A stretch of 64,000 bases of DNA from Sulfuritalea hydrogenivorans sk43H (GTDB taxonomy: Bacteria; Pseudomonadota; Gammaproteobacteria; Burkholderiales; Rhodocyclaceae). How positions within the stretch are numbered: the first letter of the stretch is position 1; each line of letters begins with the position of its first letter. Positions 2,424 through 58,035 of the stretch are shown here, piece after piece. A program made the translations under genes and the position numbers. The notes under the pieces are model-generated. The model worked only from the letters and a program-made list of their open reading frames with translations, searched no databases and was not told the DNA's origin. Location: contig NZ_AP012547.1 of the NCBI RefSeq assembly GCF_000828635.1, positions 310,001-374,000 on the forward strand, given 5' to 3'.

Positions 2424-2998
2424 AGCGGTTTCTTGCCGGCGTACTGGGTGCGGCGCTGCTGGGTTCGGCGCAGGCCGCAGACGCGCCGCAAATCGTGACC
2501 CCCGCCGAAGCCCGGCCCGCGCTGGAAGTTCCGCAGAACCGGCTGGGCTATGCCTTCGAGAAACCCGAGATCCTGGTCCGGCAGCGCTTGTTCGGCCTCG
2601 CTCACGGGATATCCCTGCTGGCAGCGGCGTGCCTCGACCTGCCCGCGCATTCGAAGCCGATCCAGGACGCCTACGCCGCCTGGCATGCGAAACAGGGCAA
2701 GGCGATTGAAACCATCGTGCGCGATCTTGCACATTACTATTTCGGACCGCGGGCCAACGAGGCCCGCTGGCCGGATGTGTCGCGCGCCTTGAATCTCGGC
2801 GACGACATCCAGCCCGCATTGAACGACCTGACCCTGCATGCCGCCTGCGCCAGCCTGCCCGAGGCGATCGGCCGGCCGCGTTACGAACTCGACCGGATGC
2901 TGGTCGAGGGATTCGAGGCCGTCGTTGCCAGCCCGCGAAGCGGAAGCCCTGGCACGCAGAGCGCGCCGGCGCCGACTGTTCAAAAGGCTGCCGAATGA
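2420..2998 (+). CDS. Secreted protein of unknown function
   Basis: A 192-residue product starting at GTG 2420, overlapping the thiG stop. The first 20 residues ([20 protein letters not shown]) form a clear signal peptide with cleavage after AQA, so it is probably periplasmic. The rest is soluble and helical, with no motif I recognise. The C-terminal tail from about residue 168 ([18 protein letters not shown]) is encoded by a copy of the dispersed hairpin repeat, so it looks like an added extension. It overlaps trmB by 4 bases. The function is unknown. Confidence 0.75.
2926..2981 (-). repeat. Long mosaic repeat, copy A (hairpin plus repeat end)
   Basis: Bases 2926-2954 form a nested hairpin: outer arms TGCCA and TGGCA, inner arms CCGC and GCGG around GAA. 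Downstream (2967-2981) lies the reverse complement of one end of the dispersed 24-base repeat (CGCCGGCGCCGACTG). The copy encodes the C-terminal tail of the secreted protein. Compare copies B (17886-17915) and C (23300-23328). Confidence 0.7.
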
Positions 2999-3702
2999 GC
3001 GCGATCGACGACGAGGCGGCCGCGGAGCGACGCGCCGGACACATTCGCAGCTTCGTGCTGCGCCAGGGCCGCGTCTCCGAGGCGCAGCGGCGTTTCCACG
3101 AGGAAGGCATGCCGCGCTGGGGCATCCCCTATCGCCCCGGGGCGCTCGACCTCGATGCCGTCTTCGGGCGCCATGCGCCGCGGATACTGGAAATCGGCTG
3201 CGGCATGGGCGAGACCACGGCCACCATCGCCGCCGCGCATCCGCAGAACGACTACCTCGGCATCGAGGTGCACACCCCCGGCGTCGGCAGCCTTCTGAAG
3301 GAGATCGCCACGCGCGAGCTTTCCAACCTGCGCGTGATCCAGCACGATGCGGTCGAGGTGGTGCGCGACATGATCGCGCCGGGAACGCTTTCCGGCATCC
3401 ATGTGTTCTTCCCCGATCCCTGGCCGAAGAAGCGCCAGCAGAAGCGCCGCCTGATCCAGCCCGGATTCGTCAAGCTGCTGGCGACGCGGCTGGCGCCTAA
3501 CGGCTACCTGCATTGCGCGACCGACTGGGAGGAGTATGCTGTCCAGATGCTGGAAGTGCTCTCCGCCGAAGCGCAACTGACCAACATGGCAAAGGACTTC
3601 ACCCCGCGGCCGCCGTATCGGCCGCAGACAAAATTCGAGAGTCGCGGACTCAAGCTGGGTCACGGCGTATGGGACGTGGTCTTCCGCCGCAAGTCGTTCT
3701 GA
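2995..3702 (+). CDS. trmB: tRNA (guanine-N7)-methyltransferase
   Basis: A 235-residue Rossmann-fold methyltransferase that makes m7G46 in tRNAs using S-adenosylmethionine. The SAM-binding motif is [16 protein letters not shown] (about residues 63-78). The catalytic and tRNA-binding signature [15 protein letters not shown] and the ATDWEEYA segment are both intact. The start overlaps the previous stop (ATGA). Its place after thiG is common in betaproteobacteria. The next gene starts 6 bases downstream. Confidence 0.96.
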
Positions 3703-3708
3703 TCGATC

Positions 3709-4863
3709 ATGTTGAATCTTGACCCCCGTACCATCATTGTCCTGGCCGGAGTGATGGGTGCGTTGATGGCGGTGGTGCTGTTCTTCCTGCGCCGCAACTA
3801 TCCGCCATCGATCAAGGGGCTGGCGGAGTGGACCGCTGCCCCGATCATCATCTTTGTTTCCACGCTGCTCATCGGCGCGCGCGGCGTCATCCCTGACTTT
3901 TTATCGGTGGTTGCCGCCAACTTGATTTTGCTGGCCGGACAGGTGCTGTTCTATTTCGGCAGCCAGCGCTTTCTCGGCGTGTCGCCGTCGTTCCGGTTCT
4001 GGGGCGCTCTGATAGTCGTTGCGGCGCCGGTGCTGGTCTGGTACACGCATGTCGAGCCGAGTTACGCAATGCGCCTGCTGCTGATCGCCTTATTGCTGAT
4101 TCTGCTTTCCACCAGCCATGCCTGGTTGCTGTTGCGAAAAGGCATCCGCAGTTTCGCCACGTATCTGACGGCCGCCGCGCTGCTGCTCCAGACCGTGGTG
4201 CAGGCACTACGTTTTATCTCCGCGATCGGCATGCCGGCGGACAACGCGCTCTTCATCCTCTCGCCGGCACAGACGTTCTATGTCGCCACGTATACCTTCT
4301 CCATGCTGATGGTCACCATTGGTGCGGTGTTGATGGCGACCGAAAAGCTGCGTGCCGAACTCGAACATCTGGCCACTCACGATTCATTGACCGGCGCCCT
4401 CAATCGACGCGCCCTGATGGAAGCCTGTGCGACGGAACTGGCGCGCTGCCGGCGCAACCAGCAGGTCATGTCGCTGCTGCTGATCGACCTCGACCACTTC
4501 AAGGCCATCAACGATAACCACGGCCATCTCACGGGCGACCGCGTGCTCGTCGATTTTGTCGCTCGCATCATCCCGCTGCTGCGACAGCCTGACCGCGTGG
4601 GCCGATTCGGCGGCGAGGAGTTTGTCGTGCTGCTGCCGGAAACCTCCCTCGACCAGGCTCGCGTCGTGGCGGAGCGGATTCGTGCCGCGGTCGAATCCGG
4701 CGCCGCTGCACTGCCTGCCTGCACCGCCAGCATCGGCGTGACGGTGAGCCTTTCCGACGATGCGAATCTTGACGGGATTCTCGCCCGCGCCGATGCGGCC
4801 TTGTACCAGGCCAAGGAGCGCGGCCGCAATCGGGTCGAGGTGATCGCCCTGCCTGCGCCGTGA
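3709..4863 (+). CDS. Membrane diguanylate cyclase (GGDEF)
   Basis: A 384-residue protein. The first about 210 residues are strongly hydrophobic, with around six or seven membrane segments, and the rest is a GGDEF domain that makes cyclic di-GMP from two GTP. The active-site loop reads GRFGGEEFVVLLPE (GGEEF near residues 300-304), a functional variant. RQPD sits five residues upstream, matching the RxxD inhibitory I-site, so product feedback is expected. DSLTGALNRRAL marks the domain start. The signal sensed by the membrane part is unknown. It overlaps nnrS by 4 bases. Confidence 0.93.
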   Translation: MLNLDPRTIIVLAGVMGALMAVVLFFLRRNYPPSIKGLAEWTAAPIIIFVSTLLIGARGVIPDFLSVVAANLILLAGQVLFYFGSQRFLGVSPSFRFWGALIVVAAPVLVWYTHVEPSYAMRLLLIALLLILLSTSHAWLLLRKGIRSFATYLTAAALLLQTVVQALRFISAIGMPADNALFILSPAQTFYVATYTFSMLMVTIGAVLMATEKLRAELEHLATHDSLTGALNRRALMEACATELARCRRNQQVMSLLLIDLDHFKAINDNHGHLTGDRVLVDFVARIIPLLRQPDRVGRFGGEEFVVLLPETSLDQARVVAERIRAAVESGAAALPACTASIGVTVSLSDDANLDGILARADAALYQAKERGRNRVEVIALPAP

Positions 4864-6020
4864 AGTTTTCTCGGCACCCCCTGTGGCTGGTCGGATTCCG
4901 GCCGTTCTTCGCACTGGCCTGCCTGTCGGGGCTCAGCCTGCCCTTGCTGTGGGTGCTGATTTATCTGGGCATCCTGCCTGCCCCCCTGTCGCGCATCGCC
5001 CCCGTGCAATGGCATGCCCACGAAATGTTCTTCGGTTTCGGCTGGGCGGTGCTCGGCGGCTTCCTGCTGACATCGACCAAGAACTGGGTGCAGATTCGCG
5101 GTTATCACGGCGCGGCCCTGATGTTCCTTGTTGCGGCCTGGCTGTTCGAACGCATGGGCATGTGGTTCGGCGGGCTCTGGCCGGCCTGGCTGTTCGAGTT
5201 CTCCAACATGCTGTTCCTGGCGGCCATCGTCGCCATGCTGATGTGGACGCTGGCGCGCTACAGCAAGCAGGACAGCTATCGCGACAACTGGTTTTTCCTG
5301 CTGATCCTTCCTGCTTTCCTGATCGCCAAGCAGTCGATGTTGAGCACCGAACATTTCCAGTTCGGCATCGTCATGGCCACCGGCCTGTTCCGCATGGCCT
5401 TCCTGGTGATGCTGGAACGCACCCTGACGCAGTTCATGAAGGGCATTTTCCAGGTCGACATCCTGCGCAATCCGGCGCTGGACAAGGCCATCAAGCTGCT
5501 GGCCCTGTCGCTGGTCGGCGCCGGCCTGATGCCGCCGCCGCTGGCGGGCGGCATCTCGTTCTTGCTGGCACTGCTGCTCGCGGGCCGGCTGATTTTCTGG
5601 AAGCCGCAGTTGGCGATGCGGCGGCTCGATCTGGGCATCATGTACCTGGGTTACGGCGCCATCGTGCTGCAACTGCTGGTCGAATTTCTGGCTCAGGTGA
5701 CGCCGCCGTCATGGGTCGGCGCCTTCTCGATGCATGTCTTTGCGCTGGGAGTCATGGGCCTGATCATTCCGGCGATGCTGATCCGGATCGCGAAGGGACA
5801 CACCGGCAGGAAGGTGGTGTTCGATCGCATCGACAAGCTGGTGCTGTGGATCATGATCGTCGCCTTCGTGCTGCGCGTCATCGCGCCGCAGATCCATCCC
5901 GCCAGCTACGAATTCTGGATTCTGCTCGCTGCCTGCGGCTGGTTCTCGGGTTTTGCGATCCTCGCGTGGCGGCTGATTCCATTCCTGCTGCAAGCACGGG
6001 TGGACGGCAAGGAACACTAG
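4860..6020 (+). CDS. nnrS: NnrS family protein
   Basis: A 386-residue polytopic membrane protein starting at GTG 4860. It opens with HPLWLVGFRPFFALACLSG, followed by WHAHEMFFGFGWAVLGGFLL, both hallmarks of NnrS, a heme- and copper-containing family tied to nitric-oxide resistance and denitrification. Conserved histidines in these segments are candidate heme ligands. It overlaps the upstream diguanylate cyclase gene by 4 bases, so the two are probably cotranscribed. It converges on hemW with a 4-base overlap. Confidence 0.92.
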   Translation: MKFSRHPLWLVGFRPFFALACLSGLSLPLLWVLIYLGILPAPLSRIAPVQWHAHEMFFGFGWAVLGGFLLTSTKNWVQIRGYHGAALMFLVAAWLFERMGMWFGGLWPAWLFEFSNMLFLAAIVAMLMWTLARYSKQDSYRDNWFFLLILPAFLIAKQSMLSTEHFQFGIVMATGLFRMAFLVMLERTLTQFMKGIFQVDILRNPALDKAIKLLALSLVGAGLMPPPLAGGISFLLALLLAGRLIFWKPQLAMRRLDLGIMYLGYGAIVLQLLVEFLAQVTPPSWVGAFSMHVFALGVMGLIIPAMLIRIAKGHTGRKVVFDRIDKLVLWIMIVAFVLRVIAPQIHPASYEFWILLAACGWFSGFAILAWRLIPFLLQARVDGKEH

Positions 6021-7225
6021 TTCAGGAATCCCGCCAGCAGTTGATTCAGGAAGCGTCGGCCGCGCGGCGTCGGCCGCATCGATCCCTCCACGGTTTCGAG
6101 CAGCCCGTTGCGCCGTGCCGCCAGCGCCGACTCTTCGATCATGGATAGCGGCAGCCCGGTGCGCTCGGTGAATAGCCCGAGCGGGAAGCCCTCGTTCAGC
6201 CGCAACGCATTCATCATGAATTCACCGGGCAGGTCGGCGCGGGCAACGACTTGCCGCGTGCTGATGAAGTCGCCACGTGCCGCGCCTTCCATGTAGGCGC
6301 GCGGATTGCGGTGGCGTGCTTCACGCCAGATGGTTTCGTGGTTCGAGAGCTTGCTGTGCGCGCCGGCGCCCAGTCCAAGGTAATCGCCGAAGGTCCAGTA
6401 GTTGAGGTTGTGCTGGCAGTGCTGCTCAGGTTTGGCGAAGGCCGAGGTTTCGTAATGCGTGAAGCCGGCGGCGGCCAATCTCTCTTCGACCATTTCCTGC
6501 ATGTCGGCGGCCAGGTCGTCGTCGGGCAGTGGCGGCGGCGCGTGGTGGAAGGGCGTGTTCGGTTCCAGCGTCAGGTGGTAGGCGGAAATGTGGCCGACGC
6601 CGGAGGCTATCGCGGTGGCGATGTCGCGCTCGGCTTCTTTCAGCGACTGCCGTGGCAGCACGTACATGAGGTCGAGATTGACGCGCTCGAAATGGGTCAG
6701 CGCCAGGTCGATGGCGCGCCGCGCCTCGGCGCTGCCGTGGATGCGGCCCAGCGCCGCCAGCTTGGCGTCGTCGAAACTCTGCACGCCGATGGAAAGCCGA
6801 TTCACTCCGGCCTCACGAAACGCGGCGAACTTCGCGGCTTCGGCGGTGCCGGGATTGGCTTCGAGCGTGATCTCGGCGCCGGGATGCAGCGGCAGGCGCA
6901 TGCGGATCGCGGCGAGCAGCGCATCGGCGGTTTCGGCGCGCATCAGGCTCGGCGTACCGCCGCCGATGAAGACGCTGACCACCGGGCGGTTCCATATCTG
7001 CGGCAGGGCGGCTTCGAGGTCGGCGATCAGCGCGGCGAGGTAGGCGGCTTCGCTGTCGTCATTCACCTCGCCGCGGCTCTCGTGCGAATTGAAGTCGCAG
7101 TAGGGGCATTTCTTCACGCACCACGGCCAGTGTACATACAGCGCCAGCGGTGGTGGGGCGACCAGGCCGGAGCCCTGTCCGACAGTCGGCGCCGACGAGA
7201 CGGCGACGGGGATGATCGGGATCAC
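6017..7225 (-). CDS. hemW: Radical SAM heme chaperone HemW
   Basis: Starts at GTG 7225 overlapping the rdgB stop, giving 402 residues, the usual size; the frame stays open upstream but that part is a shadow of rdgB. LYVHWPWCVKKCPYCDFNSH carries the CxxxCxxC iron-sulfur motif (Cys36, Cys40, Cys43). The HemW-type histidine replaces the Phe of coproporphyrinogen dehydrogenases in related HemN. HemW inserts heme into membrane enzymes and is often misnamed a coproporphyrinogen III oxidase. The first about 20 residues exceed the family norm and include a repeat copy at 7183-7206. Last gene of a five-gene operon. Confidence 0.93.
   Translation of the reverse strand: MIPIIPVAVSSAPTVGQGSGLVAPPPLALYVHWPWCVKKCPYCDFNSHESRGEVNDDSEAAYLAALIADLEAALPQIWNRPVVSVFIGGGTPSLMRAETADALLAAIRMRLPLHPGAEITLEANPGTAEAAKFAAFREAGVNRLSIGVQSFDDAKLAALGRIHGSAEARRAIDLALTHFERVNLDLMYVLPRQSLKEAERDIATAIASGVGHISAYHLTLEPNTPFHHAPPPLPDDDLAADMQEMVEERLAAAGFTHYETSAFAKPEQHCQHNLNYWTFGDYLGLGAGAHSKLSNHETIWREARHRNPRAYMEGAARGDFISTRQVVARADLPGEFMMNALRLNEGFPLGLFTERTGLPLSMIEESALAARRNGLLETVEGSMRPTPRGRRFLNQLLAGFLN
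6110..6133 (-). repeat. 24-base dispersed repeat, copy inside hemW
   Basis: Matches the consensus GAGTCGGCGCTGGCG, two free bases, ACGGCGA with one mismatch. It encodes ESALAARR near the HemW C-terminus. No clear insertion in the protein is visible, so coincidence is possible for this copy. Confidence 0.45.
7183..7206 (+). repeat. 24-base dispersed repeat, copy in hemW N-terminus
   Basis: Matches the repeat consensus with three mismatches and falls in the non-conserved N-terminal extension of HemW, between the start codon and the first conserved strand (LYVHW). Confidence 0.5.
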
Positions 7226-7812
7226 ATGCCCAGCCGCAGACGCTCGATGAGCAGCGCCAGCGCCTTGCCGCGATGCGAGTAGCGGTTCTTTTCCTCGTGC
7301 GGCAGTTCGGCCGCGGTGAGGCCGGTGCCGGGCACCAGGAAGTAGGGGTCGTAACCGAAGCCGCCGGCGCCGCGCGGCACGTCGATGATCTCGCCATGCC
7401 ATTCGCCTTCGGTGACGACCGGCTGCGGATCGTCGGCGTGGCGCATCAGCACCAGCACCGCGACGTAGTGCGCGCGGCGGTCGGCGATGCCGGCCAGATC
7501 GGTCAGCAATTTGGCGTTGTTCTTCGCGTCGGATTTCGGTTCGCCGCCGTAGCGCGCGGAGAACACGCCCGGCGCGCCGCCCAGCGCCGCGACGCACAAG
7601 CCCGAGTCGTCGGCCAGCGCCGGCAGGCCGGTCAGCCGCGCGGCATGGCGCGCCTTGGCGATGGCGTTCTCGACGAAGGTGATGTGCGGTTCCTCGGCCT
7701 CGGGAACATTGAAAGCCGACTGCGGCAGCACTTCAAAATCGAAAGGCGCCAGCAGCTGGCCGAATTCGCGCAGCTTGCCGGGGTTGCCGGAGGCGAGGAC
7801 CAGCTTCTTCAC
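7222..7812 (-). CDS. rdgB: dITP/XTP pyrophosphatase
   Basis: Starts at GTG 7812, overlapping the rph stop by 4 bases, for 196 residues. It hydrolyses non-canonical purine triphosphates (dITP, XTP) to keep them out of [16 protein letters not shown] at the N-terminus, [22 protein letters not shown] and GGFGYDPYF are family signatures, including the substrate-binding Asp pair. The start codon lies within a dispersed repeat copy (7809-7832). The open frame running upstream to about 8685 is a shadow of rph. Confidence 0.95.
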
Positions 7813-7832
7813 CGTGTCACCAGCGCCGACTG
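7809..7832 (-). repeat. 24-base dispersed repeat at the rph/rdgB junction
   Basis: Read on the minus strand it is CAGTCGGCGCTGG followed by TGACACGGTGA, three mismatches from consensus. It supplies the last codons and stop of rph and the GTG start of rdgB. Confidence 0.6.
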
Positions 7833-8540
7833 TTGTGCTTTGACGATGTCGCCGATGCCGGCGGCGGCGAGTTCCAGCAACGTATCGAGTTCGGCGCGCG
7901 AGAAGGGCGCGCCCTCGGCCGTGCCCTGCACTTCGATGATGCCGCCGCTCGCCGTCATCACCACGTTCATGTCGGTGTCGCAGGCCGAATCTTCGGCGTA
8001 GTCGAGGTCGAGCACCGGCTGGCCGCCGACGATGCCGACCGAGACGGCGCCGACCAGTTCGCGCATCGGATGGCTGGCGAGCTTGCCGCCGGTGACCAGC
8101 GTGGACAAGGCATCGTGCAGCGCGACGCAGGCGCCGGTGATCGACGCGCAGCGCGTGCCGCCGTCGGCCTGCAGCACGTCGCAATCGAGCGTGATCTGGC
8201 GTTCGCCGAGCGCGGCCATGTCGGTCACGGCACGCAGGCTGCGGCCGATCAGGCGCTGGATCTCCTGGGTGCGCCCGGACTGCTTGCCTTTCGCCGCTTC
8301 GCGCGCCATGCGCGTGTTGGTCGCGCGCGGCAGCATGCCGTATTCGGCGGTGACCCAGCCGGAACCCTTGCCGCGCAGAAAGCCCGGCACCGATTCCTCG
8401 ACGCTGGCAGTGCACAGCACCTTGGTGGCGCCGAACTCGACCAGCACGCTGCCTTCGGCGTGGCAGGTGTAATTGCGGGTGATCCTGAGGTTGCGCAGTT
8501 GCGACGCGGCGCGGTCGGTGCGTTGAAAGGTGTTGCTCAT
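7809..8540 (-). CDS. rph: Ribonuclease PH
   Basis: A 243-residue phosphorolytic 3'-5' exoribonuclease that trims tRNA 3' ends. Recognisable segments are [20 protein letters not shown] near the start, [19 protein letters not shown], and the phosphate-binding region [39 protein letters not shown] holds the catalytic Asp residues. The start overlaps the phosphatase stop (ATGA). The last six residues (SALVTR) come from a repeat copy and look like a local addition. Confidence 0.97.
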
Positions 8541-11449: not shown

Positions 11450-11462
11450 TCCATTCCCTAGA

Positions 11463-11560
11463 TTCTGAAACAGGGCAAACCCGTCGAAAGGCGGGGACGC
11501 AAAATCACCGGCCTAACGGGCGCTCCCAGCGGCGCTCCACGGTAGCGGGATTGCCAGGAG
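11463..11560 (+). promoter_or_regulatory. Cyclic di-GMP-I (GEMM-I) riboswitch
   Basis: The conserved GEMM-I elements occur in order and spacing: CAGGGCAAAC (11471-11480), a P2 hairpin closed by GAAA (11486-11489), GGGGACGCAAAA (11493-11504), the receptor strand GGCCTAA (11510-11516), a variable arm, and GGTAGCGGGATTGCC (11541-11555). It ends with AGGAG (11556-11560), which would be the ribosome site of the gene starting 6 bases later. Control of translation start is therefore likely, although attenuation cannot be excluded. Whether it turns the gene on or off is not visible. Confidence 0.93.
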
Positions 11561-17234: not shown

Positions 17235-17258
17235 GAGTCGGCGCTGGCGACACGGCGA
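17235..17258 (+). repeat. 24-base dispersed repeat, intergenic copy
   Basis: Exact match to the consensus GAGTCGGCGCTGGCG, two free bases (AC), ACGGCGA. It lies between thrH and the thioesterase gene, within 15 bases of the thrH start. Confidence 0.85.
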
Positions 17259-21931: not shown

Positions 21932-22988
21932 AAAACTCCAGCGCCTGAGCGAACGCCTGGAGGAAATCGACGGCCTGCTGGGGGGCGAGCACGTCGCGCG
22001 CGACATGGACAACTATCGCAAGCTGACCCGCGAGCGCGCCGACATCACGCCGGTGGTGGAACTGTTCCATGCTTACCGTGGCGCCAGCGCCGACTTTTCA
22101 GGTGCCGCCGAGATGCTGTCCGATCCGGAGATGAAGGAACTCGCACTGGCCGAGCAGGCCTCCGCCAGCGCGGAAATGGCCCGGCTCGAAGTGGAGTTGC
22201 AGCGTGCCCTGCTGCCGAAGGACCCCAACGACGAGCGCAACCTGTTTCTGGAAATCCGCGCCGGCACCGGCGGTGACGAATCCGCGCTGTTCGCCGCCGA
22301 CTTGTTCCGCATGTACAGCCGCTATGCCGAACGCCAGCGCTGGAAGGTCGAGATCGTCTCGCGCAGCGAATCCGACCTCGGCGGCTTCCGCGAAATCATT
22401 GCCCGAATCGAGGGCAACGGCGCCTATTCCAAGCTCAAGTTCGAGTCGGGCGGCCATCGCGTGCAGCGCGTGCCGGTGACCGAGACCCAGGGCCGCATCC
22501 ACACCTCGGCGTGCACCGTGGCGGTGATGCCGGAAGCCGACGAGCTGGTGGACATCGACATCAATCCGGCCGACCTGCGCATCGACACCTTTCGCGCCTC
22601 CGGCGCCGGCGGCCAGCACATCAACAAGACCGATTCGGCGGTGCGCATCACGCACATTCCGACCGGCATCGTCGTCGAATGCCAGGACGACCGCTCGCAG
22701 CACCGCAACAAGGCACAGGCCATGTCGGTGCTGGCGGCGCGCATCAACGACGCCAAACAGCGCGAGCAGCAGCAGAAGATTGCCTCCGAGCGCAAGAGCC
22801 TGATCGGCTCGGGCGACCGTTCCGAACGCATCCGCACTTACAACTTCCCGCAGGGCCGCATCACCGACCATCGCATCAACCTGACGCTGTACAAGATCGA
22901 CTCCATCATGGACGGCGACCTCGACGAGCTGGTCGGCGCCCTCACGGCCGAGCATCAGGCCGAGCTGCTGGCGGCGCTTTCGGAATGA
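21912..22988 (+). CDS. prfA: Peptide chain release factor 1
   Basis: A 358-residue class I release factor reading UAA and UAG. The codon-recognition tripeptide is PVT in [12 protein letters not shown] (about 187), and the catalytic GGQ is in [15 protein letters not shown] (about 231-233), the glutamine methylated by PrmC. The start ATG 21912 lies inside the end of plsB, 20 bases before its stop, and the stop overlaps the prmC start by 4 bases, so coupling is tight. Confidence 0.97.
22073..22096 (-). repeat. 24-base dispersed repeat-like match inside prfA
   Basis: Matches the consensus with three mismatches and encodes YRGASADF. Alignment with E. coli RF1 from memory shows no added length here, so this copy may be coincidental. 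Confidence 0.3.
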
Positions 22989-23842
22989 CCACCGTTGCCG
23001 CAGCGCTGGCAGCGGCGCGCGCGAAGCTGCCCGCGAGCGAGGCGCGCCTGCTGCTGGGGCATGTGCTGGGAAAGCCGGCGGCCTGGCTGATCACGCACGA
23101 TGCCGACGTGCTCGATGAGGATGTGCTGCTCGGTTTTGCTTCGCTGGTGGCGCGCCGCGCCGGCGGCGAGCCGGTGGCCTATCTGGCTGGTTTCCGCGAA
23201 TTCTTCGGGCGCGAGTTCGAGGTTTCGCCGGCCGTGCTGATCCCGCGCCCGGAGACCGAGTTGCTGGTGGATGTTGTTCTCAAGTCGGGAGTCGGCGCTT
23301 GCCGGCCCGCGAAGCGGAATTCCCGGCAGACAGAGTCCGCTACGGTGACGATGCTCGATCTGGGCACGGGCAGCGGCTGTATCGCCATCACCCTGGCCCT
23401 GGAATGTCCGCAGGCACGGGTTGTCGCGGTGGACGCTTCGGCCGCGGCGCTGGCCTTGGCGCGCCGCAACGCCGAACGGCTTGGCGCGCAATTGCGCCTG
23501 CTGCAAAGCGACTGGTTCGCCGCGCTGGCCGGCGAACGCTTTGACCTGATCGTCGCCAATCCGCCCTACATCGCCGCAGGCGATCCGCATCTTGCCGCGG
23601 GCGACCTGCGCCACGAGCCGTCGACGGCGCTGTCCAGTGGTGCCGACGGGCTGGACGACATTCGCCGCATCATCGCGGCGACCCCGGCGCATCTGGCGCC
23701 CGGCGGGCAACTCTGGCTGGAGCATGGCTACGATCAGGCCGAAGCGGTGCGTGAATTGCTGAAGGCAGCGGACTTGGCCGGGATCGAACAACACCGCGAT
23801 CTCGCCGGCATCGTGCGCGTCAGCGGCGGCCGGCTGAGGTAG
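22985..23842 (+). CDS. prmC: Release factor glutamine methyltransferase
   Basis: Starts at ATG 22985 overlapping the prfA stop, for 285 residues. It methylates the GGQ glutamine of release factors with [13 protein letters not shown], the SAM loop [15 protein letters not shown] and the catalytic IVANPPYI are intact. Between the first two lies an unusual insert ([18 protein letters not shown], about residues 100-118), about 14 residues longer than E. coli PrmC at that point and encoded by a dispersed repeat. The insert keeps the frame, so the enzyme is probably active. Confidence 0.94.
23289..23350 (+). repeat. Long mosaic repeat, copy C, inserted in prmC
   Basis: Begins with GGAGTCGGCGCT, one end of the 24-base repeat. 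It continues with the nested hairpin 23300-23328 (outer arms TGCCG and CGGCA, inner CCGC/GCGG around GAA) and ends with GCTACGGTGA (23339-23348), close to the other end of the 24-base repeat. It therefore looks like the 24-base unit with a hairpin core in its middle. It encodes the extra residues in PrmC. Confidence 0.8.
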
Positions 23843-25921: not shown

Positions 25922-25963
25922 GCCCGACGGGCTTTTATTTTGGCTTCGCCAAAATAAAAGCCC
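25922..25963. terminator. Palindromic bidirectional terminator between engB and the hemB-upstream RNA
   Basis: GCCC-GAC-GGGC (25922-25932) is followed by TTTTATTTT (25933-25941), a terminator for engB. The same T-tract is half of a perfect 16-base inverted repeat, GGGCTTTTATTTTGGC (25929-25944) with GCCAAAATAAAAGCCC (25948-25963). On the minus strand the copy at 25959-25951 follows another strong stem. Each strand thus has stem plus TTTTATTTT. Confidence 0.8.
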
Positions 25964-26070
25964 TCGACCAAAGGGGAGGAAGGTCGAGGGCGGAAACACC
26001 TTGAAATGTTCAAGGCACCCGCTCAGGGAGGTGAAGCGGGAGACAACGGGAAGGACAAGGTCCACCGCCA
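25933..26070 (-). ncRNA. Probable small RNA upstream of hemB
   Basis: Four hairpins lie in a row: 26053-26063 (GGAC/GTCC), 26018-26040 (CCCGCT/AGCGGG), 25999-26015 (CCTTGAA/TTCAAGG) and 25960-25991 (10-base stem GCCCTCGACC/GGTCGAGGGC). On the minus strand the last stem is followed by TTTTATTTT, a textbook terminator. TTGAAC (26108-26103), 16 bases and TATCAT (26086-26081) form a promoter. The loops of this RNA are C-rich (CACCTCCCTG, TTCCTCCCCTTT), as in RNAs that pair with ribosome sites. Read on the plus strand the loops carry GGA motifs and could be a hemB leader. A hemB RNA motif is known from betaproteobacteria (from memory), with its strand debated. Confidence 0.65.
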
Positions 26071-27151: not shown

Positions 27152-27391
27152 CGCTCATGGCACCGAGCACCACCCGCGGAAGATGAAACACGCGAAAGAC
27201 GAAGTTTCAGTGAAGGCTAACGCCGGCCTCATCGGCGTTAAGCGCAGCGGCCATAACTAAAAGCGAATTTGTCGCCCGCTCCCTTCCCCCCTCACGGGGG
27301 GTTACCAGTCGGCGCGCTGCGCGCGTCCATTACCGGAGCCTTCGAACACGGTGTTTCACGTTAAGAAAAGTCGGCGCTGGCGGGACGGCGA
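27152..27391. other. Intergenic region with hairpins between hemB and slmA
   Basis: No gene is seen between the convergent hemB and slmA. It contains the stem AACGCCG/CGGCGTT (about 27219-27240, without a T-run), a TGAAACAC/GTGTTTCA pair near its ends, a CCCCCC/GGGGGG hairpin near 27287-27301, and a 24-base repeat copy that abuts the slmA stop. Confidence 0.6.
27368..27391 (+). repeat. 24-base dispersed repeat next to the slmA stop
   Basis: One mismatch to the consensus, with GG in the free positions. It ends exactly where the slmA stop codon begins. Confidence 0.8.
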
Positions 27392-28995: not shown

Positions 28996-29019
28996 TCGGC
29001 GTAGCGCCAGCGCCGACTC
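28996..29019 (-). repeat. 24-base dispersed repeat between hsp20 and argB
   Basis: One mismatch to the consensus. In this copy TCGGCG (28996-29001) is also self-complementary with the opposite end, so a short hairpin is possible. It lies 9 bases after the hsp20 stop. Confidence 0.85.
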
Positions 29020-39939: not shown

Positions 39940-41666
39940 AGTTTCTGTTTGAGGAAGGCCGCCATTTCGCCGATGGCCACCATGGTGGCCTCGGCGTCGC
40001 TGCGGCCCTTGTATTCCAGCTTGCCTTCCTTGAGGCCGCGCTCGCCGACCACCACGCGATGCGGGATGCCGATCAGTTCCCAGTCGGCGAACATCGAGCC
40101 GGGACGCTCGTCGCGGTCGTCGAGGATCGCATCGATGCCGGCGGCGAGCAGCTCGGCGTGGAGCGCCCCGGCGGCGGCGCGAACGGCTTCCGACTTGGCG
40201 TAGTTCATCGGCACGATCGCCACGGCGAAGGGCGCGATGCCGGCGGGGAAGATGATGCCGCGCTCGTCGTGGCCCTGTTCGATGGCGGCGCCGACGATGC
40301 GCGAGACGCCGATGCCGTAGCAGCCCATTTCCATGACCTGGTCCTTGCCCTGTTCGTCGAGGAAGGTGCATTTCAGCGCTTCGGCATACTTGGTGCGCAA
40401 CTGGAAGATGTGGCCGACTTCGATGCCGCGGCACAGTTCGAGCGTTCCGTTGCCGTCGGGCGAGGGGTCGCCCTCGACCACGTTGCGGATGTCGGCGACG
40501 GTGGCGGGTTGCGGCAGGTCGCGGCCGAAATTGACGCCGGTGAGGTGGAAGCCTTCTTCGTTGGCGCCACAAACCATGTCGCTCATGACCGCGACGCTGC
40601 GATCGGCCACGACCCGGCCCTTGAACCCGACCGCGCCGATGTAGCCAGCCTTGCAGCGCAGCGCTTCGACGATTTCCTCGTCGCGCGCGAAGCGGAATTC
40701 ACCGACCACCTTTTGCGCCTTGATTTCGTTCAAGTCGTGGTCGCCGCGCAGCAACAGCAGGACGAACTCGCTGCCGCTTTCCTTTTCCGCCATGACCGCA
40801 ATGGCCTTCACCGTCTGCGTCAGCGGCAGGCCGAGGAAAGCCGCCACGTCCTCGCATCTGGTCTTGCCCGGTGTGGCTTTCTTTTCCATCGTCGCCGTAC
40901 CGCCAGCGCCGTCCCCGGGGATACCGCTACGCATAACTTTCACAGGAGTCACGGCTTCGGCCAGTTCCACATTGGCTGCATAGTCCGACGCCGGGCAGAA
41001 GGCGATCGCGTCCTCGCCCGAATCCGCCAGCACATGGAACTCGTGCGAGCCGGTACCGCCGATGGCGCCGGTGTCCGCCGCCACGGCGCGGAACTTGAGG
41101 CCCAGGCGGGTGAAGATGCGGCTGTAGGTGTCGTACATGTTGCGGTATTCGCGCTCCAGGTCGGCGTACGAGGTATGGAAGGAATAGCCATCCTTCATGA
41201 GGAACTCGCGCCCGCGCATGACGCCGAAGCGCGGGCGGATTTCGTCGCGGAACTTGGTCTGGATTTGGTAGAAATGGCGCGGCAACTGGCGGTAGCTCTT
41301 CACATCGCGGCGCACCACGTCGGTGATGACCTCTTCGTGCGTAGGGCCGATCACGAAATCGCGCTGGTGGCGATCCTTGAAGCGCAGCAACTCGGGGCCG
41401 TACTTCGGGCCGCGTCCGGATTCTTCCCACAATTCAAAAGGTTGCACCGCCGGCATGAGCAGTTCGATGGCGCCGGCGCGGTCCATTTCCTCGCGCACGA
41501 TGTTCTCGACCTTGCGCAGCACGCGCAGGCCCATCGGCATCCAGGTGTAAATGCCGCCGGCAAGACGACGGATCAGGCCGGCGCGCAGCATCAGCTTGTG
41601 GCTGACGATTTCCGCGTCCGAGGGAGCTTCCTTGAGAGTGGCGATGAAGAACTGGCTGGCGCGCAT
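39927..41666 (-). CDS. proS: Prolyl-tRNA synthetase
   Basis: Starts at ATG 41666 for 579 residues, the length of bacterial-type ProRS with the editing (INS) domain. Class II motifs: [16 protein letters not shown] (motif 1 region), [17 protein letters not shown] and [25 protein letters not shown] (motif 2), and [16 protein letters not shown] (motif 3). The linker [17 protein letters not shown] before the editing domain contains a repeat copy. Confidence 0.96.
40892..40915 (-). repeat. 24-base dispersed repeat inside proS
   Basis: Two mismatches to the consensus. It encodes GDGAGGTAT in a variable linker of ProRS, a tolerant place for an insertion. Confidence 0.65.
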
Positions 41667-44230: not shown

Positions 44231-44298
44231 ACCCCTGTCTCCTCCACCCTCCTCCTTTGGTGTGGATTAAACGCAGCCCGTTCGGGTTGCGTTTTTTT
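44231..44298 (+). ncRNA. Candidate C-rich small RNA 3' end
   Basis: A short stem CACC (44245-44248) and GGTG (44259-44262) displays the loop CTCCTCCTTT, complementary to ribosome-binding sites, and is followed by a strong terminator hairpin. No protein gene upstream needs that terminator. The 5' end is unknown and could lie as far back as about 44085. This is inference from layout. Confidence 0.35.
44270..44298 (+). terminator. Rho-independent terminator
   Basis: ACGCAGCCCG and CGGGTTGCGT form a stem with a short TT loop, followed by a run of T residues ending near 44299. Confidence 0.85.
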
Positions 44299-44348
44299 TC
44301 GCTTGTTCGTCGAGGATGTGTGCGAGTTACCTGATTTTGCTGTCAGGT

Positions 44349-44393: not shown

Positions 44394-44469
44394 GGGTCGG
44401 TAGCTCAGTCGGTAGAGCAGCGGACTTTTAATCCGTTGGTCGCGAGTTCGAATCTCGCCCGACCCACCA
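44394..44469 (+). tRNA. tRNA-Lys (anticodon UUU)
   Basis: A 76-base tRNA. Acceptor arms GGGTCGG and CCGACCC pair fully. The D-arm starts TAGCTCAGTCGGTAGAGCA, the anticodon loop is CTTTTAA between CGGA and TCCG, the T-loop is TTCGAAT, and CCA (44467-44469) is encoded. Confidence 0.98.
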
Positions 44470-44492
44470 CCGTAATATATAATTTGCAATTC

Positions 44493-44568
44493 GGGTTGTT
44501 AGCTCAGTTGGTAGAGCAGCGGACTCTTAATCCGTAGGTCCACAGTTCGAATCTGTGACAACCCACCA
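44493..44568 (+). tRNA. tRNA-Lys (anticodon CUU)
   Basis: A 76-base tRNA 23 bases after the first. Acceptor arms GGGTTGT and ACAACCC, anticodon loop CTCTTAA between CGGA and TCCG, T-loop TTCGAAT, encoded CCA (44566-44568). It shares promoter and terminator with the UUU gene, and the bodies are nearly identical, suggesting duplication. Confidence 0.98.
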
Positions 44569-49777: not shown

Positions 49778-49778
49778 C

Positions 49779-49889: not shown

Positions 49890-51833
49890 ATGACCCCCGA
49901 ACTCGGACACTTCGCCCTGATTCTTGCTTTCGTGGTTTCCCTGTTGCAGGGGGTGCTGCCTCTGGTGGGCGCTCAGCGGGGGCAAGCGCAATGGGTCGCG
50001 CTGGCGCGGCCGGCGGCGCAGACCCAATTCCTGCTGATTGCCTTTGCTTTCGCCTGCCTGGCGCAGAGTTTTCTCGCCAGCGATTTTTCGGTGACCTACG
50101 TCGCCCAGCATTCCAACACCCAGTTGCCGACCCTGTATCGTTTCTCGGCGGTATGGGGCGGGCACGAAGGCTCCCTGCTGCTCTGGGTGCTGATGCTGGC
50201 GGGCTGGGGCGCGGCGGTGTCCCTGGCCTCGCGCCAACTGCCCGAAGTGATGGTGGCGCGCGTGCTCGCCGTGCTCGGGCTGGTCGGCATCGGCCTGCTG
50301 GCGTTCATCCTGTTTACCTCCAATCCGTTTGACCGTTTGTTGCCGGCCGCGGCGGAAGGGCGCGACCTGAATCCGCTGCTGCAGGATCCCGGACTGGTGT
50401 TCCATCCGCCGATGCTCTACATGGGCTATGTCGGCTTTTCGGTGGCCTTTGCCTTCGCCATCGCGGCGCTGATTTCCGGCCGGCTCGATGCGGCCTGGGC
50501 GCGCTGGTCGCGGCCATGGACCACGGCGGCCTGGGTCTTCCTCACGCTCGGCATTGCACTGGGCAGCTGGTGGGCGTATTACGAACTGGGTTGGGGCGGC
50601 TGGTGGTTCTGGGACCCGGTGGAAAATGCATCCTTCATGCCCTGGCTGGTGGGCACGGCGCTGATCCACTCGCTGGCGGTGACCGAAAAGCGCGGCGCCT
50701 TCAAGAACTGGACCGTGCTGCTGGCCATCGCCGCATTCTCGCTCTCGCTGCTGGGCACCTTCCTGGTCCGTTCCGGCGTGCTGACCTCGGTGCACGCCTT
50801 TGCGTCGGACCCGCGCCGCGGCGTCTTCATCCTGGTGCTGCTGGCCATCGTCGTCGGCAGCTCGCTGGCGCTGTTTGCCTGGCGCGCGCCCAAGGTCAGC
50901 GCCGGCGGCAGCTTCGGCCTGGTGTCGCGCGAGACCATGCTGTTGATGAACAACGTGCTGCTGGTGGTGGCCACCGGCAGCGTGCTGCTCGGTACGCTGT
51001 ATCCGCTGCTGATCGATGCCCTTGGCATGGGAAAGCTTTCGGTCGGGCCGCCCTATTTCAATGCCGTTTTCGTGCCGGTCATGGTGCCCTTGCTGCTGCT
51101 GATGGCGGCGGGGCCGATGGCGCACTGGAAACATGCCGACCTCAGGGCCATCGCGCGCCGCCTGCGGGTGAGCATGGTGCTGGCCGTCATCGCCGGGATT
51201 GCCCTGCCGCTGCTGATGGGCGCCTGGACGCCGCTGACCGCGATGAGTTCCCTGCTGGCGGTGTGGATCGTATCCAGCGGCGTGTTCCAGATCATGGACC
51301 GGATGAAGACGGGCCGGCCGACCGCGGCCTTCTGGGGCATGCATGTCGCGCACTTCGGCATTGCCGTATTCGTCATCGGCGTGGCGATGGTCGGCGGCTA
51401 CCAGGAGGAAAAGGATGTCCGCATGGAGCCGGGCGACACGGTAAGCGTCGGTGGCTACGGTTTCCGCCTGGTCGAGGTGAAGACCGCTCCGGGCCCCAAC
51501 TATCGGGCGTCCGTGGGCACCGTCGAACTGTCGAAGGACGGCCGTTTGCTGAAGATCATGCATCCCGAAAAACGGCAATACTTCTCGTCGCAGATGCCCA
51601 TGACCGAAGCCGCGATCGATGCCGGATTCACCCGCGACGTGTATGTCTCGCTCGGCGAGCCGCTTGACAACAAGGGGGCGTGGAGCGTGCGGGTGTACTA
51701 CAAACCCTTTGTCGACTGGATCTGGGGCGGCTGCCTGTTGATGGGCCTGGGCGGCGTCATCGCCATGCTCGACCGGCGCTACCGGCTGCGTGCAAGAGTC
51801 GGCGCTGGCGCCACGGCGGGAGTGCCGGCATGA
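49890..51833 (+). CDS. ccmF: Cytochrome c heme lyase subunit CcmF
   Basis: Starts at ATG 49890, with GGAGG upstream, for 647 residues with about 14-15 membrane helices. The WWD domain is GWGGWWFWDPVENASFMP (about 232). Conserved His residues occur in WGGHEGSLLLW, ALIHSLAVTEKRGAFKNW and MHVAHFGIAVFV. It attaches heme to apocytochromes with CcmH/I. The final residues (ARVGAGATAGVPA) are encoded by a repeat copy. Confidence 0.97.
   Translation: MTPELGHFALILAFVVSLLQGVLPLVGAQRGQAQWVALARPAAQTQFLLIAFAFACLAQSFLASDFSVTYVAQHSNTQLPTLYRFSAVWGGHEGSLLLWVLMLAGWGAAVSLASRQLPEVMVARVLAVLGLVGIGLLAFILFTSNPFDRLLPAAAEGRDLNPLLQDPGLVFHPPMLYMGYVGFSVAFAFAIAALISGRLDAAWARWSRPWTTAAWVFLTLGIALGSWWAYYELGWGGWWFWDPVENASFMPWLVGTALIHSLAVTEKRGAFKNWTVLLAIAAFSLSLLGTFLVRSGVLTSVHAFASDPRRGVFILVLLAIVVGSSLALFAWRAPKVSAGGSFGLVSRETMLLMNNVLLVVATGSVLLGTLYPLLIDALGMGKLSVGPPYFNAVFVPVMVPLLLLMAAGPMAHWKHADLRAIARRLRVSMVLAVIAGIALPLLMGAWTPLTAMSSLLAVWIVSSGVFQIMDRMKTGRPTAAFWGMHVAHFGIAVFVIGVAMVGGYQEEKDVRMEPGDTVSVGGYGFRLVEVKTAPGPNYRASVGTVELSKDGRLLKIMHPEKRQYFSSQMPMTEAAIDAGFTRDVYVSLGEPLDNKGAWSVRVYYKPFVDWIWGGCLLMGLGGVIAMLDRRYRLRARVGAGATAGVPA
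51796..51819 (+). repeat. 24-base dispersed repeat at the ccmF C-terminus
   Basis: One mismatch to the consensus, with CC in the free positions. It encodes the last residues of CcmF, 11 bases before the ccmG start. Confidence 0.85.
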
Positions 51834-52815: not shown

Positions 52816-54101
52816 CCTCCTTTTATCTCGCGGCGGCGACGCTGGCTGTCGTCGCTCTGGCGCTGTTGCTGCGTCCGTGGTGGCGTGCCGGTCGCCGTAG
52901 CGCCAGCGCCGACTCTTCCTTGCCGGCGCTCAATGCCGCCATCCATCGCGACCGCCTTGGCGAACTGGAGCGAGACCGCAACAATGGCAGCCTGTCGGCA
53001 AGCGATTTCGACGAGGCCCGCGAAGAGCTGCAGCGGCAACTGCTTGACGACACCGCCGCGAGCGAGGTGGTCGCTGCTGCCGCGCAGGGCACTTCCGGTC
53101 GCGGCGCCGGCATCGCGATCGCCATCCTGGTACCGCTGCTTGCCGTGGCGCTGTATGCCTGGCTGGGCAGCCCCGCAGCGGTATTGCCCGGCGCGGTACA
53201 AACCCAGCGCGCCGCGGCCGACATGGAACAGCTCGTGGTCAAGCTCGCCAACAAGCTGGCACAGAATCCGGACAATCCCGAGGGCTGGGCCATGCTGGCA
53301 CGCTCCTACAAGTCGCTGGGCCGCTGGGATGATGCCGAACGCGCCTATCTCCGCATCGGGCCGGATTTCAACAGGAATGCCGAACTGCTTGCCGAACTGG
53401 CGGAAATGCTGGTGCAGAAGAACCAGGGTTTCGATTCGCGTTCGCGCGAGTTGACGCAGCAGGCGCTGCGTCTCGAACCCAACAACATGCTGGCCTTGTT
53501 CCTGGGCGGCGGCGAGGCCCTTGACGGCGGGCGCTTCGCCGAAGCCGCCACGCTCTGGGAACGACTGCTGCCCCAGCTCGAGCCCGGCAGCGAAGATGCG
53601 CGCATGGTCGAATCCAGTATTGCCATGGCGCGCGAGCGCAGCGGCGGCGCCCGGGCAAAGGCATCGAAGGGGAAGGATGTCGCGGGCGCGGCGGTTCCGC
53701 AAGACGACGCGCATCGCGGTGTCGCCAAGGCTGGCAAGGGCGCGGCAAAGGCGACAGCGACATCGGTCAGCGGCCGCGTCGAGCTCTCGCCTGCATTGAA
53801 GGACAAGGCCGGGCCCGACGACGTGGTCTTCATCTTCGCCCGCGCCGTCGATGGCCCGCGCATGCCGCTGGCGGCCCAGCGCGCACGGGTGGCCGATCTG
53901 CCGCTCGACTTCATGCTCGACGACGGGCAGGCGCTGATGCCGGAGGCCACGATTTCGTCCGCCAAGCAGCTGCGTGTCGAAGTGCGCGTCTCGAAAACCG
54001 GCAAGGCGACGCCGGGCAAGGGCGATCTCACCGGCAAGAGCGCCGCGGTGAAGCCCGGCGCCAAGGGCTTGAAGATATTGATCGACCAGGTCGATCCCTG
54101 A
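52812..54101 (+). CDS. ccmI: Cytochrome c biogenesis protein CcmI (TPR)
   Basis: A 429-residue protein: two N-terminal membrane helices (about 5-22 and 95-117) around a coiled coil (AIHRDRLGELERDRNNGSLS), then periplasmic TPR repeats (NPEGWAMLARSYKSLGRWDD) and a C-terminal domain that chaperones apocytochromes. Just after the first helix lies RRSASADSS, encoded by an exact repeat copy. It is the last ccm gene. Confidence 0.93.
   Translation: MTSFYLAAATLAVVALALLLRPWWRAGRRSASADSSLPALNAAIHRDRLGELERDRNNGSLSASDFDEAREELQRQLLDDTAASEVVAAAAQGTSGRGAGIAIAILVPLLAVALYAWLGSPAAVLPGAVQTQRAAADMEQLVVKLANKLAQNPDNPEGWAMLARSYKSLGRWDDAERAYLRIGPDFNRNAELLAELAEMLVQKNQGFDSRSRELTQQALRLEPNNMLALFLGGGEALDGGRFAEAATLWERLLPQLEPGSEDARMVESSIAMARERSGGARAKASKGKDVAGAAVPQDDAHRGVAKAGKGAAKATATSVSGRVELSPALKDKAGPDDVVFIFARAVDGPRMPLAAQRARVADLPLDFMLDDGQALMPEATISSAKQLRVEVRVSKTGKATPGKGDLTGKSAAVKPGAKGLKILIDQVDP
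52892..52915 (-). repeat. 24-base dispersed repeat in ccmI
   Basis: Exact match to the consensus, with CT in the free positions read on the minus strand. It encodes GRRSASAD in the cytoplasmic loop after the first membrane helix. Confidence 0.85.
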
Positions 54102-54184: not shown

Positions 54185-54198
54185 TTGATAAACATCAA
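54185..54198. promoter_or_regulatory. FNR/Anr-type binding site upstream of nap
   Basis: TTGATAAACATCAA is a perfect match to TTGAT-N4-ATCAA. Its centre (54191.5) is about 41 bases before the start predicted from TAGGAT (54220-54225), the class II activator position. The rest of 54102-54319 holds no gene. Confidence 0.85.
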
Positions 54199-54219
54199 GG
54201 CTCCCTTCCGGGACAGGCC

Positions 54220-54225
54220 TAGGAT
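54220..54225 (+). promoter_or_regulatory. -10 element of the nap promoter
   Basis: TAGGAT with no recognisable -35, as expected when FNR replaces it. The start is predicted near 54232, giving a leader of about 88 bases to napD. Confidence 0.6.
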
Positions 54226-54319
54226 GCTGCATGTGCACAATCACCCAATTCATGCAGGGTTATTGAGGCGCGGCGACTGAAGCGGCACCGCCATCCGTGC
54301 CGGCCATGAGGGTCAAGCA

Positions 54320-54568
54320 ATGAACATATCCAGCGCCATCATCCACGCCCGTCCCGGTGCCGTGGCCATCGTTCAGGCCGGGTTGGCCGCGCTGGAAGGC
54401 GTCGAGGTGCACGCCGTCTCTCCCGAAGGCAAGCTGATCGTCACCATCGAAACCGAGGATGACGGCAGCAACGTCGCCACTTACGAACGCATTGGCCAGC
54501 TCGACGGTGTCATGTCGGCGGCCATGGTCTATCACCAAACCGAATCTGAGCCATACAAGGAGATCTGA
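54320..54568 (+). CDS. napD: Nitrate reductase chaperone NapD
   Basis: An 82-residue ferredoxin-like protein ([40 protein letters not shown]) that binds the NapA twin-arginine signal until cofactor loading is done. It is the first gene of the nap operon; many relatives begin with napF or napE. One base separates its stop from the napA start. Confidence 0.94.
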
Positions 54569-54569
54569 A

Positions 54570-57119: not shown

Positions 57120-57177
57120 TCGAACATGCATGGAGTCGCGGAGGGCGCGGGAAACATGCGCTCTCCGTCCAGCGATC

Positions 57178-58035
57178 ATGGACAACGAGAACACGCCGAG
57201 TGCCGCAGCCCGTCGCCAGTTCCTCGCCGATACCGCGCGCATGGCTTGCGGCGTCGGCCTCTTGGGGCTTGGGGTCGGGCTGTATGCGCGACATGCCAAG
57301 GCCTTGCCGCCGGCGGCGATCCGGCCGCCCGGCGCCTTGCCGGAAAGCGACTTCTCGGCGGCCTGCATCCGCTGCGGGATGTGCGTGCGCGATTGTCCCT
57401 ACAACATCCTGCATCTGGCCAAGCCCGAGGAGCCGATGTCGACCGGCACGCCTTACTTCGTCGCGCGCCAGTTGCCTTGCGAGATGTGCGAGGACATTCC
57501 GTGCGTGAAGGCCTGCCCGACCGGGGCGCTCGATCACTCGTTGAAGGACATCAACAAGTCCAAGATGGGACTCGCGGTGCTGGTCGACCACGAAACCTGC
57601 CTCAATTTCCTCGGCTTGCGCTGCGACATCTGCTACCGCGTCTGCCCGGTGATCGACAAGGCCATCACGCTCGATCCGCAGACCAACGCGCGCACCGGCA
57701 AGCACACCCTGTTCATTCCGGTGGTGCATTCCGACCACTGCACCGGATGCGGCAAGTGCGAGAAGGCCTGCCCCACCGAGGTGGCTTCGATCAAGGTGTT
57801 CCCGCTCTACATGGCCAAGGGCCAGCTCAGCTCGCACTATCGCCTGGGCTGGGTGGAAAAGGAAAAAGCCGGCGGCAGCCTGGTGGCGCCGGACGTCGAG
57901 CATCAGTACAACATGCCCGAGGGCATGAAGTATGAGAGCGGCAAGGGACTGTCGGGAAGTCCGGGCGCCGTCCCGCCAGCGCCGACTCCCGGGCCGGTCG
58001 GCTTGCCCAAGGCCTTCCAGGGGGGCAAGCTGTGA
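57178..58035 (+). CDS. napG: Ferredoxin-type protein NapG
   Basis: Starts at ATG 57178 for 285 residues. Twin-arginine-like AARRQFLADTARMACG, then four [4Fe-4S] motifs (CIRCGMCVRDCP, CEMCEDIPCVKACP, CDICYRVCP, CTGCGKCEKACP). With NapH it passes electrons from quinol toward NapB/NapA. The tail SGSPGAVPPAPTPGP near the C-terminus is encoded by a repeat copy (57965-57988). It overlaps napH by 4 bases. Confidence 0.95.
   Translation: MDNENTPSAAARRQFLADTARMACGVGLLGLGVGLYARHAKALPPAAIRPPGALPESDFSAACIRCGMCVRDCPYNILHLAKPEEPMSTGTPYFVARQLPCEMCEDIPCVKACPTGALDHSLKDINKSKMGLAVLVDHETCLNFLGLRCDICYRVCPVIDKAITLDPQTNARTGKHTLFIPVVHSDHCTGCGKCEKACPTEVASIKVFPLYMAKGQLSSHYRLGWVEKEKAGGSLVAPDVEHQYNMPEGMKYESGKGLSGSPGAVPPAPTPGPVGLPKAFQGGKL
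57965..57988 (-). repeat. 24-base dispersed repeat near the napG C-terminus
   Basis: One mismatch to the consensus, with GG in the free positions on the minus strand. It encodes AVPPAPTP in the low-complexity tail of NapG. Confidence 0.85.

Follow-up and report, generated by a model that had tools for sequence, protein, structure and literature searches.

A word of some two dozen bases recurs throughout the DNA of Sulfuritalea hydrogenivorans sk43H, inside genes as well as between them, and the question raised is what kind of sequence this is and what keeps its many copies alike. The stretch in which it was noticed, referred to here as the window, covers 64 kb (positions 310001-374000) of a genome consisting of one contig of 3,802,648 bases (G000); other genomes are given similar handles.

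Abundance and consensus of the word

At up to three mismatches the window holds 11 copies, two of them with no mismatch, five with one, one with two and three with three. The eleven positions and strands given in a preliminary description of this DNA, including its two exact copies and its five with one mismatch, proved exact throughout. In 100 dinucleotide-preserving shuffles of the window, the mean number of matches to the word was 0.00. The whole genome possesses 661 matches at up to three mismatches (335 forward and 326 reverse) against 0 forward and 0 reverse for the reversed pattern, so that the earlier claim of a density far above chance stands, as does the word itself under the genome-wide count that had been proposed as a check. 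A slightly more permissive pattern (R at position 1, Y at position 5), applied to 464 kb of the genome, finds 24, 25, 26, 11 and 3 copies with 0 to 4 mismatches respectively, with 0 in each of these classes for the reversed control; at 5 to 7 mismatches there are 9, 55 and 257 matches against 5, 77 and 307 in the control. As the spectrum falls to the control level past four mismatches, the copies form a discrete family with no composition tail. Chance or composition as the source of the word is ruled out by the shuffles, the reversed controls and this spectrum.

A set of 79 copies, taken from the window and from another twenty 20-kb stretches of the genome, was aligned and gave the consensus RARAGTCGGCGCTGGCGRBACGGCGA, with no conserved flank beside the word. 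The repeat had been described as a 24-base unit; its existence is confirmed but not its length, the conserved unit being about 26 bases with two purine-rich bases preceding the 24. Likewise, two of its bases had been called free, which does not hold for the first of these (among 86 own copies it is a purine 74 times and T in none), and letter preferences are apparent at the 'free' bases of the word. Conservation extends over 20 of the 24 positions (76-100% identity in each of four genomes, among copies chosen at up to three mismatches) and is not concentrated in a short core of 9-12 bases, as in the uptake sequences of the Neisseriaceae (DUS) and Pasteurellaceae (USS). The two strands are about equally used in this genome and in most other genomes of the genus, and informal counts by stretch gave no apparent strong strand preference along the sampled part of the own genome. 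The spacing of copies is slightly more even than Poisson (variance/mean 0.76-0.89 in 5-kb bins).

Copies within the window

Two copies share the radical SAM gene with a HemN_C domain (ORF 6017-7597, minus strand), one with a single mismatch near its 3' end and on the same strand (6110-6133, minus) and one with three mismatches in its first part on the opposite strand (7183-7206, plus). At 7809-7832 (minus, three mismatches) the word provides the last codons and the stop of the RNase PH gene (ORF 7809-8540, minus), while the exact copy at 17235-17258 (plus) lies immediately upstream of a HAD hydrolase gene on the minus strand or coincides with its very start. A copy with three mismatches sits inside a release-factor-1-type gene with PCRF and RF-1 domains (22073-22096, minus), a site which is of equal length in other genera. 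Two copies with one mismatch each, at 27368-27391 (plus) and 28996-29019 (minus), lie between predicted genes. The last codons of the CcmF gene are formed by a copy with one mismatch (51796-51819, plus), the early part of a CcmH/CycH-like gene has an exact copy (52892-52915, minus), and the gene for a 4Fe-4S protein has a copy with one mismatch close to its 3' end, where the sequence varies in length (57965-57988, minus). The copy with two mismatches is the right part of a longer form, L1, inside a prolyl-tRNA-synthetase-like gene (40892-40940, minus). The host genes look like ordinary housekeeping genes, namely those for RNase PH, the release-factor-1-type protein, the prolyl-tRNA-synthetase-like protein and cytochrome c maturation.

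Other long forms in the window are a putative L4 at 23289-23348 (plus), assigned by its sequence pattern, with similar ends and an inverted hairpin module inside, and a degenerate form of type L3 with a changed right end at about 2918-2978 (minus). The latter encloses coordinate 2926, given earlier as the start of the family, where no copy of the short word is present.

The window's five Rfam matches all lie away from the copies of the word. Rfam places a c-di-GMP-I riboswitch at 11464-11558, an anti-hemB RNA at 25952-26043 and a Betaproteobacteria toxic small RNA at 44236-44300, and two tRNA genes are found at 44394-44565.

Long forms and hairpins

In forms L1 and L2 a hairpin-bearing module follows the first five or six bases of the word with similar ends kept, while in L3 and L4 the hairpin module lies further in. 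The candidates from pattern searches numbered 12 and 9, with one or two doubtful, making about 18-20 long forms in all, and 549 distinct short copies were counted in all loci examined. The long forms keep both ends, and the L3 hairpin is also found without these ends. Some sites have a long form in one genome and the short word in another. Site 40892 has L1 in G000, L2 in G023, the short word in G012 and G001, the short word with an insert in G027 and a decayed form in G010; site 17235 has the short word in G000 and L3 in G004 and G023. Between G001 and G027, length differences of 21, 36, 39 and 45 bases occur inside recognisable ends at four sites. We know of no uptake sequence having hairpin forms which alternate with the short word, and these long forms are what a plain uptake signal would chiefly leave unexplained.

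The short word itself may form a weak imperfect hairpin on its top strand (TCG.CG / CG.CGA). One copy with its flanks folds better than all 200 shuffles (z -3.2), and the mean DNA folding energy in the C dialect (see below) is -5.5 kcal/mol, with -3.6 for shuffles, and in the T dialect -4.4 kcal/mol, with -2.7 for shuffles. Covariation was not seen, with no pair of ten exceeding shuffled partners by more than about 1.3 standard deviations, and the T dialect converts one C-G pair of the hairpin into T-G.

At two loci, L163 (near 1893, reverse strand) and L167 (near 5857), copies of the word are directly adjoined by a hairpin repeat, CTGGATTCCCGC..GGAATGACGG, which we take to be dRS3-like.

Genomes carrying the word

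At up to two mismatches, 10 to 513 copies are present in each of the 31 genomes of the genus examined. Six genomes from other genera of the same family have one copy in three cases and none in the other three, and 24 genomes from other families of the order have 0 copies at this threshold. A scan of a named collection matched at least 120 stretches; among the matches listed, which are largely from Rhodocyclales with many from Sulfuritalea, 63 of 80 bear the names Sulfuritalea, Sulfurisoma, Propionivibrio, Rugosibacter, Rhodocyclaceae or Rhodocyclales, six of 80 belong to unnamed betaproteobacteria and 11 of 80 are named otherwise, in some cases perhaps through errors of binning.

Orthologues in other genera had been suggested as a test of the family, and at five window sites the alignable genomes, 3 to 6 of them at each, are without the word. 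Old coding sequence common to other genera is ruled out as its source by these aligned sites together with the genome-wide counts. Nor was a comparable word found in samples from five other genera of the family (G032-G036, about 390 kb in all, with G033 represented by just 20 kb), in which no 13-mer is present more than 5 times and no 15-mer more than 3 times, the commonest in 100 kb of the own genome reaching 11 and 7; 11-mers are less clear-cut, with up to 12 (GC-rich) in the other genera against 17 in the own sample. A 75-kb sample of G021 (L280-L283) has another repeated word, TTCACTGGGATACAGG and TTTCAAGCCCAGT, among its commonest 12-mers and 14-mers.

No mention of the letters GTCGGCGCTGGCG was found in the accessible portions of the open-licence literature, and the word was not met in those portions dealing with uptake sequences, dispersed repeats, Rhodocyclales or illegitimate recombination.

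Placement relative to genes and islands

In samples of three genomes, 153 copies were placed relative to genes predicted with a simple codon-position model, copies within 1.5 kb of a stretch end being left out: 76 lie within genes, 73 are intergenic and four cross a gene end. As 82% of this sampled DNA is coding, the intergenic part is four to five times richer in copies. This agrees with the initial view of a dispersed and abundant family both inside and between genes, and unlike classical REP elements, as about half of the copies are coding and there is no confinement to intergenic DNA. Within genes, four of six readings are common (VGAGxTA with 25 copies, AVxPAPT with 23, RRxASAD with 15 and ESALAxRR with 10) and two are rare, with 2 and 1 copies; 17 of the 76 genic copies lie in the last tenth of their genes.

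In a 460-kb sample of the own genome, the 13 of 92 5-kb bins with less than 60% GC have 0 copies and the other 79 bins have 86. Two 20-kb stretches of this genome without a copy are islands with conjugation or IS/integrase genes. Both are low in GC, one (L141, 1900001-1920000) having TraU and HipA and the other (L145, 2300001-2320000) an IS66 transposase, a putative integrase and a RecD2-like helicase. The low-GC effect is not uniform, however, as the eight low-GC bins of three relatives hold four copies: one in a single bin of G001, two in a single bin of G010 and one in six bins of G027. The core-genome bias known for DUS and USS is therefore present in the own genome and not clear in the three relatives. 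Samples of four genomes have no opposed pairs less than 100 bases apart, and so do not have the frequent close inverted pairs of Neisseria; one close inverted pair was found in G001 in a listing of exact T-form copies.

Locus L036 (positions 1-6122 of JALHPU010000019.1, Sulfuritalea sp. bin.273) has an integron-like, attC-like array (GCCCAAC ... GTTGGGC). It also has nine copies of the word in 6.1 kb, all on one strand and at about eight times the density of the own genome; having been picked post hoc as the densest of 120 loci, it provides only a lead. An automatic attC finder at strict settings reported none, even in L036 with its boxes visible by eye, so the remark on integrons rests on reading by eye.

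Dialects and near loss

The exact T form AGTTGGCGCTGGCGNNACGGC has 198, 237 and 228 copies in G001, G027 and G015 respectively, and 0 to 5 in the other 28 genomes. For the exact C form AGTCGGCGCTGGCGNNACGGC the corresponding numbers are 26, 27 and 33, with 80 to 314 in 25 genomes, 41 in G025, 31 in G021 and 3 in G016; the own genome has 314 exact C-form copies and 0 of the exact T form. Among exact copies, 87-90% read AGTTGG in G001, G027 and G015, while the others read AGTCGG almost throughout. In a tree of 30 of the 31 genomes, built from one 7-kb region, G015, G001 and G027 form a clade (support 1.000) nested within C-dialect lineages, and the simplest reading of this is that the C form is ancestral and that the T dialect arose once. 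At position 5 the word thus has dialects following the phylogeny, as do DUS and USS. Position 11 (T or C) differs in proportion, from about 1% C in G002 to over half in G019.

Genome G016 groups with G009, G012 and G003 (support 0.994) and has three exact copies and ten at up to two mismatches, compared to 121, 202 and 142 exact copies in these neighbours. This is most simply explained by the disappearance of most copies along the branch of G016 itself.

Eleven orthologous site groups span both dialects, sites with flanks shorter than 150 bases being left out. Nine of these groups show C to T, one A to T and one is unchanged, compared to 178 of 3426 flanking C (5%) read as T. The change is concerted and in place: it is seen at 10 of the 11 groups, and the copy counts imply it for hundreds of copies. 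Such a change cannot easily be obtained by site-by-site selection or by new transposition. A clade-wide switch of one letter in place points instead to upkeep by recombination or recognition, and not to a transposing repeat.

Conservation of sites and possible replacement in place

Sites are mostly common to species that are 8-14% diverged. Comparison of G001 with G027 (about 91-92% identity) and of G000 with G010 (about 86%) involved 135 copies, of which 21 had one flank only, five were too far apart and 42 had no ortholog in the DNA sampled. Of the 67 with both flanks matched, 51 have the word at the same place, some sites being counted twice as the comparisons were run in both directions. 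Among the remaining 16, six to eight represent the same site with a longer or shorter form, three are just past the threshold, one has a different sequence of equal length and four align poorly or partly. Constraint within the word is present but modest: in the two closest pairs, orthologous copies differ at 5-6% of its fixed letters, compared to about 9% for their flanks, which are mostly coding, and in 105 pairs from many species the values are 12% and 16-18%.

At three coding sites (51796, 52892 and one in L134), relatives without the word have sequence of equal length that departs from it at 6 to 14 of 22 letters, with flanks mostly 78-88% alike and down to 68%; two of the 36 equal-length 'absent' comparisons (G000 with G012 at 52892, in both directions) are a 3-base register shift and no absence. 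At 51796 the different sequence of equal length is found in G010, G012, G016 and G025, and these non-carriers also vary among themselves. The lowest differences (6-7 letters) occur at 52892, where the word is present at up to four mismatches in 13 of 15 relatives examined and not in G016 and G025, both of which have probably lost it. The in-place gains at two sites would be too large for point mutation, given 10-14 mismatches at equal length between flanks that are 81-88% alike. At 57965 the word is absent in G011, G017, G023 and G025. At the intergenic site 28996 the sequences of G001 and G027 are shorter by 26 to 31 bases, in a poor alignment, which could reflect an insertion or deletion.

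The family had been expected to consist of an inserted unit with definable borders and a target duplication, which is largely unsupported: 51 of 67 sites are shared, three coding sites are of equal length in relatives, and no target duplication was seen at the sites compared. A simple transposon as a general account is likewise unsupported, though site 28996 fits an insertion or deletion.

Possible explanations

The reading tentatively favoured here is that of a genus-wide self-DNA word of about 26 bases which would be spread and kept alike by biased recombination, like DUS with their dialects. Concerted change would require a recombination-based drive in which donor DNA with the currently preferred word is favoured, copies being gained, repaired and updated through short-patch recombination. 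The most likely driver would be a DNA uptake receptor of changeable preference, as for the DUS dialects of the Neisseriaceae; a shift of this receptor may have led to the switch from AGTCGG to AGTTGG and its loss to the decay of the word in G016. Counted for an uptake-type reading are the copy number against zero controls, the equal strands and the genus-wide carriage, the in-place dialect switch and near loss in the nested G016, the lack of copies in the low-GC bins and two islands of the own genome, and the equal-length in-place gains at two sites, as reported for neisserial DUS. Counted against it are the length of the word, the rarity of inverted pairs, the hairpin long forms and the modest constraint, as well as the variable stretch at 51796, the non-uniform low-GC result and the insertion-compatible site 28996. 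ComEA (TIGR00426) was over the cut-off in none of the 31 genomes, with no match at all in the own genome, and weaker matches in 19 of 31 lie inside ORFs of about 550-940 aa; as it is below the cut-off everywhere, the case for a canonical competence system is not made. ComEC occurs in 30 of the 31 genomes, G016 among them, and, being kept there, does not track the word.

Owing to the long forms, a self-overwriting mini-element is ranked as the strongest rival, and is possible if rather doubtful. The small dispersed repeats of cyanobacteria serve as the comparison for such a modular miniature element, of which ssDNA or RNA-derived copies would anneal by their shared ends and overwrite the interior, so that sites persist while forms and dialects are exchanged. 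This would account for the series of forms at 40892, the short word and L3 at 17235, the differing interiors at four sites of G001 and G027 and the keeping of both ends, and also for in-place replacement at coding sites and for the one insertion-compatible site. On the other hand, long forms are few beside the short copies, the L3 hairpin occurs without the ends, site positions seldom turn over and no encoding enzyme was identified.

A long recognition sequence bound by a chromosome-organising or regulatory protein, with dialects arising by coevolution of protein and site, agrees with a maintained and strand-balanced word, slightly even spacing and letter preferences at the 'free' bases; it is nonetheless unlikely, as it needs separate selection for the same letter at hundreds of sites on one branch, interiors alternate with hairpin forms, and no strong strand preference was apparent in the informal counts along the sampled genome. 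Spread as a REP-type element by a RAYT (Y1 transposase), which would call for a hairpin with a purine-rich 5' tag, is suggested by the weak imperfect hairpin, its folding better than shuffles and the purine-rich bases before the word, and is made very unlikely by the lack of covariation at ten pairs, the T-G pair in the T dialect, the half of copies which are genic and the in-place dialect switch. The dialect might also be a mutational artefact, in which methylation of the C at position 5 of the word was followed by deamination to T in one clade, since the prevailing change, from C to T, is a transition at CpG and is prominent at position 5. This can scarcely be credited, however, as the other fixed letters of the T clade are about as uniform as those of the C clade (86-100%), about 200-240 exact T copies remain and the own genome has 0 exact T copies against 314 C copies; from the uniform letters and the remaining exact copies, the T word itself seems to be maintained.

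With regard to the uptake-type reading, the word could conceivably, and with some doubt, represent a third natural uptake-signal system, independent of the Neisseriaceae and Pasteurellaceae and found in environmental Rhodocyclales, with a signal of 24-26 bases that changed its dialect by one letter along one branch and almost disappeared along another; without a part for uptake, it could be a word rewriting itself in place by templated replacement. Uptake signals with dialects are known from these two families, and it is disputed whether selfish drive or a benefit accounts for their spread. A third example, this time from free-living bacteria and with both switch and loss in one genus, would make this question testable by comparison. 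If the word is no uptake signal, the concerted editing of hundreds of dispersed 26-base sites would need a new explanation.

Comparison with known systems

The USS of the Pasteurellaceae are abundant and non-palindromic, with a long extended consensus and an AAGT-like start, and the word is like them in all of these features. It differs in that the USS have a 9-base core with AT-rich tracts and their hosts are gammaproteobacteria, the likeness being one of sequence pattern. The small dispersed repeats (SDR) of Nostoc, of about 20 bases or slightly more, are also dispersed and possibly mobile, as the word may be; the word differs from these in its in-place dialect switch, its sharing of sites across species and its occurrence in a different phylum. 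The term 'small dispersed repeats' is mentioned in PMC2884548. With the REP/REPIN elements associated with RAYTs (PMC3116915), the word shares a short, high-copy family, while differing in its weak hairpin without covariation, its half of genic copies and its few close pairs.

Compared to the DUS of the Neisseriaceae, given as 10-12 bases (PMC2397512), the word is longer at 24-26 bases, has fewer copies (661) and few close inverted pairs, and possesses hairpin long forms, with ComEA not found above the cut-off in any of the 31 genomes. It would be DUS-like in its working but is not filed as a DUS, since length and inverted pairing fail to agree. From similar comparisons, Treangen and colleagues inferred that recent neisserial DUS arise by recombination (PMC2397512), and DUS dialects follow phylogeny, some being one letter apart, according to a further study (PMC3630211). 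Like DUS and USS, the word is strongly over-represented on both strands, with 335 and 326 copies against controls of 0.
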